Under the pieces are notes generated by a model. It ran no database searches and had not been told where the DNA came from. It saw only the letters and a program-made list of their open reading frames with translations. From NCBI GenBank assembly GCA_012031265.1, contig JAAUTY010000012.1, positions 1 through 64,000 on the forward strand: 64,000 nt of DNA. The letters run 5' to 3'. A program made the translations under genes and the position numbers. The stretch's first letter is position 1; each line of letters opens with the position of its first letter. Shown here piece by piece: positions 19,719 through 27,813 of the stretch. This DNA comes from Spirulinaceae cyanobacterium SM2_1_0. GTDB lineage: Bacteria > Cyanobacteriota > Cyanobacteriia > Cyanobacteriales > Spirulinaceae.

Positions 19719-21604
19719 ATGAAATTTTCCTGGCGAGTTGTATTACTTTGGACATTACCCGCCCTGATTGTGGGCTTCTTCATCTGGCAAGGCGCATTTG
19801 CCACTGCTGATAACGGACTAGGCAACAATGCGGCAAGTACGCGCATGACCTACGGGCGCTTTCTGGAGTACCTCGACGCCCATCGCGTCACCAGCGTCGA
19901 TCTGTACGAAGGCGGTCGTACTGCCATTGTGCAAGCCATCGACCCGCAACTGGACAACCGCTTGCAGCGCTACCGCGTCGATTTACCGGCGAATGCTCCG
20001 GATCTGGTGGCGGAATTGCGTCAAGAAGGCATCACCCTCGATTCGCACCCGACCCGCAACGATGGCGCGCTCTGGGGTTTCCTTGGCAACCTGATTTTTC
20101 CCATCCTGCTGATTGGTGCGCTCTTCCTGCTCTTCCGCCGCTCCAGCAACATCCCTGGCGGGCCGGGTCAAGCCATGAGCTTTGGCAAGTCGCGGGCACG
20201 CTTCCAAATGGAAGCAAAACCGGCGTCGTCTTTGACGATGTCGCGGGTGTGGATGAAGCCAAAGAAGAGCTACAAGAGGTCGTCACCTTCCTGAAGCAGC
20301 CCGAGCGCTTCACGGCGGTCGGCGCGCGCATCCCCAAGGGTGTCCTGCTTGTCGGTCCGCCGGGAACGGGTAAGACCTTGTTGGCGAAGGCGATCGCGGG
20401 TGAAGCCGGTGTACCCTTTTTCAGCATCTCCGGCTCGGAGTTCGTGGAAATGTTCGTCGGTGTCGGTGCTTCGCGCGTCCGCGACCTATTCAAGAAAGCG
20501 AAGGAGAATGCTCCCTGCTTGATCTTCATCGACGAGATTGATGCCGTCGGCCGACAGCGCGGCGCGGGCATCGGCGGTGGCAACGACGAGCGTGAACAGA
20601 CGCTCAACCAGTTGCTGACCGAAATGGACGGCTTTGAAGGCAATACCGGCATCATCATCATCGCGGCGACGAACCGCCCCGATGTCCTGGATTCGGCGCT
20701 GCTGCGCCCCGGCCGCTTCGACCGGCAGGTCACCGTTGATGCTCCTGATCTCAAGGGTCGTCTGCGGATTTTGGAAGTCCACGCCCGCAACAAGAAGATT
20801 GCGCCGGAGATTTCGATCGAAACAATCGCCCGTCGCACTCCCGGCTTTACTGGCGCTGACCTGGCGAACTTGCTTAACGAGGCGGCGATTCTCACCGCGC
20901 GGCGACGCAAGGAAGCGATGACGATGCTGGAAATCAACGACGCGGTGGATCGCGTTGTGGCGGGGATGGAAGGCACGCCGCTGGTGGATAGCAAGAGCAA
21001 GCGCTTGATTGCTTACCACGAAGTTGGTCACGCCATCGTTGGCACACTGGTCAAAGACCATGACCCGGTGCAAAAGGTGACCTTGGTTCCGCGTGGTCAG
21101 GCCCAGGGCTTGACCTGGTTTACGCCCAACGAGGAGCAGGGTTTGACCACCCGCGCGCAATTGATGGCGCGGATTGCCGGGGCGATGGGCGGTCGCGCTG
21201 CTGAAGAAGAAGTCTTCGGGGATGCTGAGGTGACTACGGGTGCGGGCGGTGACCTGCAACAGGTGACCGGCATGGCACGGCAGATGGTGACGCGCTTTGG
21301 CATGAGCGACCTCGGCCCGCTTTCACTGGCTGGGCAGACCGGCGAAGTCTTTTTGGGCGGCGGCTTGATGTCGCGGGCGGAGTATTCCGAGGCGATCGCC
21401 ACCAAAATTGACGCGCAAGTCCGGGCGCTCGCCGAGCACGGCCACCAGATTGCCCGCCAGATCATCCGTGACAATCGCGCCGTGATCGACCGCCTCGTCG
21501 ATTTGCTGATCGAGAAGGAAACGATCGATGGCGAGGAGTTCCGGCAAATCGTTGCTGAGTACACCGAGGTTCCGGAGAAGGAGCAGTTCGTGCCGCAACT
21601 GTAA
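19719..21604 (+). CDS. ftsH: ATP-dependent zinc metalloprotease FtsH2-type, frameshifted in this sequence
   Basis: The two frames (19719-20294 and from about 20220) together give about 628 aa, closest to the FtsH2 (slr0228) type I remember. Order: N-terminal helix, lumenal domain, second helix ([18 protein letters not shown]), AAA+ with [17 protein letters not shown] and RPGRFDR, then HEVGH zinc site. The protease degrades damaged D1 in photosystem II repair. A run of four A at 20216-20219 lacks one base: restoring it turns AKPASS into [12 protein letters not shown]. Rest is intact, so sequencing error, or less likely -1 slippage on the A run, explains it. Confidence 0.93.
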
Positions 21605-24601: not shown

Positions 24602-25183
24602 TCAGAATGAGAGGCTCTGAAAAAGTTCGGCAACCGGAAACCTAAAGTCAGGGATGACGGCTTCGCCGGCCAGAAAGTCAGTTGACTTCAGCAGACGGTC
24701 TGGTTCTTGGCTGGAGCGATAGACCAAGACGTAGCGTTGCGTCGGGCTGACGATCCAGACCAGTCGAGCTTGATTGGCAAAATATTCTGCGATTTTTTGG
24801 TCGAGTTCCTCGATCGTGTTGCCCGGAGAAAGAACTTCCACGGCGAGATCCGGCGCACCTTCGAGGAACCTGGTGGGTAATTCTGTGATGCCTTGTAACC
24901 GCTCCTTGGCAAAGAAGGAAATATCCGGCGAGCGCCGATTGCCATTCTTCATCGTGAAAGCGGTGCTCGAGTCGAGCACGACGCCCAGTTTTCTGGGTAA
25001 GACATCGCTCGTCAAAGCAGTCAGCAGCAGACTACAGACATAGCCATGCAAGGCCCCTGAATTACCCATATCGATGAGTTCTCCGGCCACAATTTCATAG
25101 CGATGCCCATCTTCGGGGAGCGCCATAAATTCTGAGTCTGTCCAGACTTTTTTTGGGGCTGGCGATTCAGTGGCGAGCGACAT
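24602..25183 (-). CDS. Uma2 family (DUF820) putative endonuclease
   Basis: 193 aa from ATG 25183, preceded by AAGGAG at a good distance; the open frame extends further upstream. The PD-(D/E)XK-like core is visible: YEIVAGELIDM, SPDISFFAKERLQG, then PDLAVEVLSPGNT with the catalytic E-V pattern, and KIAEYFANQARLVWIV. Uma2 proteins are highly expanded in cyanobacteria and their role is unclear. Stands alone between tRNA-Ser and the polyferredoxin fusion. Confidence 0.88.
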   Translation of the reverse strand: MSLATESPAPKKVWTDSEFMALPEDGHRYEIVAGELIDMGNSGALHGYVCSLLLTALTSDVLPRKLGVVLDSSTAFTMKNGNRRSPDISFFAKERLQGITELPTRFLEGAPDLAVEVLSPGNTIEELDQKIAEYFANQARLVWIVSPTQRYVLVYRSSQEPDRLLKSTDFLAGEAVIPDFRFPVAELFQSLSF

Positions 25184-25283
25184 CAGTAAACTCCTTGTGC
25201 AAAAGCTGAGCAATCAACGTCAAAAGTGAGCCGAGCTGCTCTCTAGCATAACCGCCGTCGGCATCAGGCCCAATCCCTCGGCA

Positions 25284-27813
25284 TTAAAGCAGGATCGCCC
25301 AGAAACTCATGGCGAGGAGGGCGATCGCGCCATGTTGCGGCAGCAACCAAGCGAAGGGTTGTCGGGCAATTTTTTGGGTCAGGACGATCGCCAGGAGGCT
25401 GCCAACGAGCAAGACTGCACCTTGCAAAAAGGCGATCGCCGCTGGGTGCGCCACCAGGATTGGCAAACTGATGCCGGTTAACCCAAAAGTCGCCAAGCCA
25501 ACGGGCAGGATTTGCCCCGCCTCGCCCAATCCCAGCGGTAGATAGTAAGCGAGGTTGGCGGCTAGAACCAGTGGTAAATAACCGTAGGCGAGTTCGACAA
25601 AGCGGCGGGGTTTCAGCGATCGCGCCAAACGATAGTTCAATCGCAGAATCGCTTGGGCGAGCAAGGGCAGCAGCGCCGGTAGGCTGAGGGCAGCGATCGC
25701 CAACAGTGCGTGTTGACCAAACCGTTCAAGTTCAAAACCCAAACCCAACTCAGCATTGATCACCGGCAAGCAGTGTAGAAAAACCACATCCAACAATAAG
25801 AGCAACAGTGCGACTTCATAGAGGCGCGGGACGTGGGTTGTCCAGAGTTCAATCCCTGGCGGCCGCAGATTCACCTCCACGGAACGATGGGGACATGCCT
25901 TGAGGCAAGTCATGCACAGGACGCAATCCCGATTGTCCTCTAGTTGGGCGGGGTGTGAATAAAGGGGACAGCCATCTGTTTCCAGTCCTTCCCCTTTCTG
26001 CGGTCCGCCTTTGTAGCATTGATAAGTCGTGCATTCTGCCGAACAAATGCCTTGCTGAGCGCGCAATTCGGTGATCGAAAGTTTAGCAAATAGGCCATTC
26101 ATGCCACCGATCGGGCAGAGATAGCGACACCAGAAGCGGCGCTCGAAAATGGTGCTAAAAATAACTGCTCCGGCCGTGATCAACAGCAGCAAGCAAGATG
26201 AGAGATAAGCGGTATTTTCAAGCTGCCACAATTCCTCCCAGAGCAGAATCAGGGTGAACAAGCCGAAGAGAAACCAACCACCCCAGCGCTCCGCCGCTTG
26301 ACGCGGCCAGGGTTTGAGCTGACGCGGCCAAAGTTTCAGCGAGAGATTTTGTACCAGTTCGCCGTAGATCATGAACGGGCACACGGCGCACCATATCCGA
26401 CCCACCAGCGGAAAGCCCAGCAAAATCAGCGGCCACCACCAGGCCCAGAAGAGATTGAGCGCGAAGTTGCGATCGCGCGTCTGCGGCCCAATGAACAAAA
26501 TGATCACGACGGCCGCAAACGCCGCCAAGGTAAAGCTGTAGTTAATCCGGTCGGGCCACCAGGCACTGCGTAGGAAACGGCGCAAGCTTGGGTAGGCATT
26601 GAGCAGATTGAGTCGAAACTGTTTTTTCTTGCTTTGGGAGGGCCAGATGATTTCTTCCGTCAATTCTGAGCCGCCATCCAGTTGCACGAGCGCCCGTTGT
26701 ACGAGGCTATCGAGTTCGCGCAAATTGCTGGGGAAGTCGTAGGCTTGCAGGCGACGCAAAGCTTCGGGGCTGAGGCCGGGGCGGGGGATACCTTGGGCGC
26801 GACAGATCAGGCTGACATAATAATTGACCAGATCTTCGATGTCAGCTTTGCGGATACGCAGCGGGGGAACCTTGATCCGGCGATCGCAACAGGGATTCAA
26901 ATCCGGCAAGGCACGCTCCGAGATGGCGATCAAACGCGCTTCGGTAGTCACCAGCGGCGTCTCGCCATCGCGACTGACGGGGCGATAGGTGCGATGACGG
27001 AACAGCTCGGCGACCGGCTGCACCAATTCCGGCGGCAACTCCTGGACATTGTTCAAAATCAGCGTGCCCGTGCCCAAGGCGGCCAACAAGCCGGGTTTGC
27101 CGCCTGCGCGCCCAAAGAGTTCCGCACCGCTCGCTTGGAGCGTGTTGCAATCGATGCGGATGATTGGCTCGCGGCGGCTGGGTGAGCTGTAGTGGATCAG
27201 CGCCGCAATGTTGTCTTTTTCCAGACCCGGCTCACCGAAAATAAGCACCGATTGCCGATCTTCAGAAGCCTGTTTAATTTGCCGACGGAGCGCACGGCGT
27301 AGCGGCTGCGCCCGATGATGCCGCGCCGCGCTTTGGTCACGAGGTAGGGACGCAGGGCGGTCTGGCGCGCTTGTTCAAATTGCAGTTGCGAGGCGAGTTG
27401 CGCGACGGTGGCGGCGAGTTGCTGGCTGAGGCTCTGGGCAATCTCGGGTTGGTGGCGGCGATCGCCTGAAATGCCGCCGCTGGCACATACCAAAATTGGC
27501 AGTCACGGCGACAAGTGACGGTCTGGGCCGCTGGCTGGTCGAGAACCAGAGCTTGCAGGTTGAGAACCGTGCCGGGGAGCAGGCTGACGGTCTGGCGCAG
27601 TTGCGGACGCTCCGGCGGGCGATCGCTCTCGGCCTGACCGGCAATCAAGATATAGAGACCTTCGGCGGGATCACCCTCGTGGCTAAGCGTCGTCCCCGCT
27701 GGCAATCGTCGCTCCATCAGGGCTGGGGCGATCGCGGCGAGGCTGTCTGGTGACAGAAAGTTCAGGGCTGAGCGCTCTTGCAACCATGTCACCCGCTCGG
27801 TGATGCTGGTCAT
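25284..27813 (-). CDS. cNMP-binding / AAA+ / membrane polyferredoxin fusion, two frameshifts in this sequence
   Basis: Three overlapping frames form one protein of about 843 aa. Residues 1-125 are a cyclic-nucleotide-binding-like domain (LPAGTTLSHEGDPAEGLYIL). A helical linker leads to an AAA+ domain of the sigma-54-activator type (FGEPGLEKDNIAALIHY, TLILNNVQELP, FPSNLRELDSLVQRAL), but the GAFTGA sigma-54 contact loop is absent. The C-terminal half has several membrane helices with NapH/NosR-like Fe-S motifs (WCAVCP, CRYLCPIG, CVLCMTCLKACP). One base is missing near 27446-27448 and another near 27287-27292. A redox membrane protein gated by cNMP and ATP is an inference. Confidence 0.8.

Follow-up and report, generated by a model that had tools for sequence, protein, structure and literature searches.

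A cyanobacterial protein family joining a CRP-like domain and a degenerate NtrC-class AAA+ domain to a membrane iron-sulphur half: putative role in electron transfer

Architecture and reading frame of the gene

The gene at positions 25284-27813 (minus strand) of the window, i.e., of the whole 64,000-nucleotide stretch of DNA analysed, encodes a CRP-like cNMP-binding domain (CNBD), an AAA+ domain of the NtrC class together with the lid domain, and a membrane half of the Fer4_5 type. It belongs to a widespread cyanobacterial family in which the catalytic glutamate of the AAA+ domain is absent and the iron-sulphur core is the most conserved part. We give about even chances to the interpretation that these are membrane electron-transfer proteins of the NapH/NosR type (Fer4_5), with an AAA+/CNBD head that has a regulatory or assembly role and is not a motor.

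The three-part fusion proposed by the initial annotation was borne out by Pfam scans, with every part above its gathering score: PF00027 (cNMP_binding, 54 bits on the open reading frame 27813-27337), and, in the frame 27296 to 25287, PF00158 (Sigma54_activat, 48.7 bits), PF25601 (AAA+ lid, 48.0 bits) and PF12801 (Fer4_5, 37.4 bits versus a gathering score of 22). In intact relatives, the CNBD, the AAA+ domain and the membrane half occupy one frame of about 840-900 codons with no stops, and the protein identity to the window's gene is mostly about 60-73%, the best values being 71-73%. The window's gene, in turn, runs through three successive frames, as deduced from three-frame translation and the alignment of relatives; the frame shifts by a single base twice, near 27446 and near 27299. 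The first change is at 27446-27447 and the second at 27297-27301 (minus strand), and both resemble single-base deletions in short runs of the same base. The second frame (27302-27445, minus strand), aligned with the intact relatives, holds a long linker helix and the start of the AAA+ domain. The GTG at 27248 that opens a 654-codon open reading frame, a short way before the P-loop, is not a real start.

The two frame changes could mean that the window's copy, and this copy only, is a decaying pseudogene without function, a possibility that would agree with every interpretation of the family as a whole. No second copy was found in the window's genome and, in G116, the one further genome examined from this taxonomic family, the copy of the same subfamily I (L045, 8074-9819) has an internal deletion by which the iron-sulphur loop and the whole cysteine region are gone, while the subfamily II copy is intact. 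Against decay, the window's copy is otherwise intact, with 60-70% identity to relatives and all 12 cysteines kept, and a similar single-base break next to a run of A splits FtsH in the same window (19719-21604, plus strand) into two overlapping open reading frames, which suggests a sequencing error in the contig. As breaks of this kind were few in the roughly 410 kb of the assembly that were scanned, the scan does not decide between error and pseudogene for the window's gene. On balance, the pseudogene is considered somewhat unlikely. Elsewhere in the window, a codon-usage scan gave a further coding-frame switch at about 46277 (plus strand), and a gene of the Uma2 family (putative endonuclease; 24602-25213, minus strand) lies directly downstream of the gene studied.

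Distribution and subfamilies

With a subfamily II protein as the query, matches were obtained in 306 of the 390 Cyanobacteriia genomes, about 263 of them strong by count of the match table; the matches beyond these had E-values mostly around 1e-4 to 1e-10 and covered parts only. The fusion is conserved and no conserved separation of all the parts was found; the CNBD, however, turned out to be dispensable. In the same phylum but outside Cyanobacteriia, the matches were stand-alone polyferredoxins or AAA+ proteins only. Among plasmid records, two cyanobacteria alone had the full fusion, Pseudanabaena galeata and Aulosira laxa, the two halves matching different proteins elsewhere, and no relatives were found in viral contigs.

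The alignment and the tree divided the family into three groups. Subfamily I, to which the window's gene belongs, is the core of the tree and the chromosomal form; subfamily II is a single clade (support 100/100) on a long branch; and subfamily III, also a single clade (support 100/100), lacks the CNBD and occurs in f25, a family whose genomes are small. Members without CNBD were also found inside subfamily I (L048, L065) and subfamily II (L036), with no full CNBD found nearby. Motif conservation was counted over 148 aligned relatives, with 106 of subfamily I and 37 of subfamily II entering the residue counts. A variant of about 1134 codons, with two tandem AAA+ modules before the membrane half, occurs in L244 (G265:C35) and in family f52; its first AAA+ module keeps the Walker B aspartate.

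The family appears to be undescribed, as no account of a CNBD/AAA+/membrane fusion was found in the literature searched. Synechocystis slr2059 (Fed9) was taken up as a possible homologue in a model strain and dropped, the papers describing a small two-cluster ferredoxin. Members, those on plasmids included, bear database labels that misname them, either 'nitrogen assimilation regulatory protein' or 'cyclic nucleotide-binding domain-containing protein'.

The membrane iron-sulphur half

The membrane half (25287-26600, minus strand) was identified from the Fer4_5 match, its relation to NapH and hydropathy, with 8-9 predicted transmembrane helices and a cysteine-rich loop predicted to be cytosolic. 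Twelve cysteines within 25893-26390 (minus strand) are invariant in 148/148 relatives. They are arranged, with the same full conservation of each motif, as WCxxCP (26390-26379), WCxxxCP (26129-26115), C-x3-C-x4-C ... C (26045-25968) and CxxCxxCxxxCP (25925-25893), all on the minus strand. Hydropathy and the positive-inside charge pattern place all the cysteines, as a prediction, on the cytosolic face. In the region formed by the first four transmembrane helices and the iron-sulphur loop, 92 of 267 columns are conserved at the 97% level. The strongest conservation of the protein thus falls in the electron-transfer core, and the redox half is the part guarded by selection.

The closest model for this half was NapH/MauN (TIGR02163, 50 bits, below the cut-off of 213), which matched every member scanned over about 180 residues. 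The NosR model gave weak matches (18 bits) in 22 of the 23 members. The group is related to both, yet its scores are far under the cut-offs of the two models. The NapH/NosR-like nature attributed to this half by the initial annotation is supported. A fold search with the membrane half alone gave no match with E <= 0.001, the model being poor (pLDDT 64, below 50 in the cysteine loop).

The AAA+ domain

The alpha/beta domain (26904-27296, minus strand), assigned by PF00158, by alignment with FlrC and NifA and by structural comparison, is followed in the protein by the lid (26643-26858, minus strand). The AAA+ fold modelled for a relative (L071) matched FleQ and NtrC1 with a VIA Z of about 22, VpsR being also among the structural matches. 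The fold can be taken as certain, and fold and sequence together group the domain with NtrC1, FleQ, FlrC and PspF.

The catalytic motifs have fared very differently from the fold. The P-loop remnant GEPGLEKDN (27210-27236, minus strand) conforms to the pattern GEPGL(E/G)KDN of subfamily I, with the sixth residue being Glu in most of this subfamily and the Lys invariant, while the P-loop of subfamily II is intact (GxGK in 37/37). The Walker B position (27048-27053, minus strand) shows, in the alignment of relatives, Asn-Asn in place of Asp-Glu, the two positions being Asn in 104/106 and 106/106 of subfamily I, respectively, and the catalytic Glu is absent in 148/148 relatives, including subfamily II. 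When FlrC, NifA and L243, an activator of the canonical type, are taken as references, the segment of the arginine finger (FREDLYYR-type) is deleted. The domain is thus, as judged from its motifs, probably ATPase-dead and dead as a motor. The near-invariance of Asn-Asn in subfamily I speaks against decay and for a non-catalytic site kept by purifying selection, and the invariant P-loop Lys leaves room for nucleotide binding even in this subfamily.

Concerning the contact with sigma-54, the absence of a GAFTGA loop noted in the initial annotation extends to the whole family: no GAFTGA-like motif was found in the 148 relatives, and the loop is deleted in the alignments with FlrC, NifA and L243, the deletion falling in the window's gene at FGRAGGKPG (L1 loop site; 27090-27116, minus strand). 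Pfam scans gave no DNA-binding domain (HTH/Fis). As to the hosts, the sigma-54 family PF04552 had no match in the window's genome, and the 145 Cyanobacteriia genomes searched gave no more than two, both partial and noise-like and covering 38 and 33 positions. Control genomes such as E. coli and B. subtilis were matched as expected. The class Cyanobacteriia is without sigma-54, as the initial annotation had held, and sigma-54 is likewise absent in 29 cyanobacteria according to published work (PMC3162934). The activator L243 (G276:C856), which has GAFTGA and comes from a small contig in a cyanobacterial bin, is probably a contamination and was used solely as a motif yardstick.

The CNBD

The first frame of the gene (27448-27813, minus strand) has the CRP-like cNMP_binding fold, as supported by PF00027 and by the model of L071, whose residues 5-147 match Clr with a VIA Z of 16.7. 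The canonical ligand residues are absent: the ribose-binding Glu of the phosphate-binding cassette is replaced by Leu in 102/106 members of subfamily I and by Tyr in 34/37 of subfamily II, and the phosphate-binding Arg is not conserved. The CNBD is the least conserved part of the protein, with 1 of 155 columns conserved at the 97% level, a figure that is low partly because some members lack the domain. In view of these substitutions and of its loss in several lineages, the CNBD does not look able to bind cAMP or cGMP in the canonical way and makes an unconvincing cNMP sensor.

These observations bear on the proposal of the initial annotation that a live AAA+ motor under cAMP/cGMP control drives or controls membrane electron transfer. 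The order of domains is as such a model has it, the P-loop Lys is invariant and GxGK is kept in subfamily II. However, the catalytic Glu is missing throughout the family, subfamily I has neither the Walker B Asp nor the L1 loop nor the arginine-finger segment, and the CNBD has lost its ligand residues or is itself absent. This model is therefore considered very improbable. Of the original proposal, membrane electron transfer stands as likely, while the motor and the response to cyclic nucleotides are not supported. With the catalytic motifs and the cNMP pocket residues lost and no DNA-binding domain present, the protein can be regarded neither as a motor driven by cNMP nor as an activator of sigma-54.

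Gene neighbourhood

A cysK gene, downstream and on the same strand, adjoins the subfamily II gene in 28 of the 38 distinct loci (29 of 39 entries, since L181 and L208 are a single plasmid). The gap is often no more than 40 bp. In subfamily I, cysK is within range in 4 of 108 loci. Other genes near subfamily II encode rhodanese, the Rieske protein PetC, an alternative D1, an SQR-like FAD protein and thioredoxin-like proteins, as well as cytochrome bd, heme oxygenase, HemN, TauE/SafE and ArsR, the latter near five loci, a minority. The choice of these marker genes came from the loci themselves, so that their enrichment can be taken as descriptive only; what is solid is the presence of cysK next to the gene in many families. 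The islands are sometimes plasmid-borne: those of Aulosira laxa plasmid2 (L182) and Pseudanabaena galeata pPg_03 (L181) carry psbA, petC and cysK together with the subfamily II gene. Subfamily I had no conserved neighbours beyond the local synteny of close relatives.

From their gene content, the subfamily II loci may be read as sulphide/low-oxygen islands. Genes of the sqr-arsR-psbA type are known from sulphide-using cyanobacteria, with variants of sqr, arsR and psbA described (PMC5061849); the text of that paper contains none of the terms NtrC, cyclic nucleotide, 4Fe-4S and cysteine synthase. For the window's subfamily I, a link with sulphur and low oxygen may be inferred from that of subfamily II, its sister form. 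The location of the sister form beside such genes indicates that the protein is probably a redox device and not a gene regulator.

The main rival to electron transfer is a membrane redox sensor of the NosR/NirI kind, in which the iron-sulphur half would read the quinone pool and the head would bind a partner, e.g., a regulator of the ArsR or Crp type. The weak NosR matches, a head made entirely of signalling domains and the ArsR gene near five subfamily II loci speak for a sensor, but the protein shows no output domain, no histidine kinase and no part that binds DNA, an ArsR gene accompanies only a minority of the loci, and it is the electron-transfer core that is most conserved. We hold the sensor to be unlikely, though clearly less so than the live motor.

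Proposed function

In the preferred interpretation, that of a membrane electron-transfer protein, electrons would be exchanged between the quinone pool of the membrane and a soluble carrier in the cytosol (ferredoxin or the NAD(P)H side), along a path formed by the two Cys-Pro motifs at the membrane face and by two [4Fe-4S] clusters that the cytosolic loop would hold. The AAA+/CNBD head may sense a small molecule or a partner, or build an oligomer, and in this way gate or localise electron transfer, presumably with no mechanical work and no contact with RNA polymerase. Since the membrane model was poor and the fold search empty, we infer the cofactors, with their number, and the quinone partner, and the direction of electron flow and the gating role of the head are put forward at the same level. 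Subfamily II, with its nucleotide-binding P-loop kept, would serve the sulphide/low-oxygen islands together with cysK, and subfamily I would be the chromosomal form, with the nucleotide site degraded further.

A more speculative extension, which we regard as doubtful, is that a phylum without sigma-54 turned the sigma-54 activator ATPase into a lid that covers an iron-sulphur conductor in the membrane and reads nucleotide state or ligand. The ATP/ADP state might then, in subfamily II, gate the electron flow that allows photosynthesis or respiration where sulphide is present and oxygen is low, and CysK would capture sulphide in coupling with this flow.

The two database labels would mask a widespread cyanobacterial redox family. 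Its interest lies in an NtrC-class AAA+ fold that hosts lacking sigma-54 have apparently kept for tasks other than that of a motor, and in a putative, so far unstudied membrane electron carrier placed in islands that bear on anoxygenic photosynthesis.

Comparison with known systems

Concerning the head, CRP/FNR-type proteins such as Clr have the CNBD fold in common with the family, which differs from them in having neither the conserved Glu and Arg of the cassette nor an HTH. TyrR, VpsR, FleQ and HupR are also NtrC-class proteins that work without sigma-54; they, however, keep a DNA-binding domain, while the family studied here has a membrane redox half and has lost Walker B and the arginine finger.

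Concerning the membrane half, stand-alone proteins of Deinococcus and haloarchaea annotated as '4Fe-4S binding protein' (WP_027463891 and relatives) are 34% and about 26% identical to it, respectively, over about 260 residues; they have no AAA+ or CNBD head, and their gene neighbourhoods showed no common theme. NapH/MauN (TIGR02163, PRK09477; quinol dehydrogenase ferredoxin subunit) shares the succession of transmembrane helices, whose Cys-Pro motifs lie on the cytosolic side, and a cysteine-rich loop, but the window's family has 8-9 predicted helices, no nap operon and the AAA+/CNBD head in front. NosR, NirI and CcoG share the Fer4_5 membrane architecture, which NosR combines with a regulatory role; no FMN-binding periplasmic domain was seen in the window's family, and the NosR score is low. 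With the sqr-arsR-psbA islands (PMC5061849) the likeness is one of setting, subfamily II being found among such genes.
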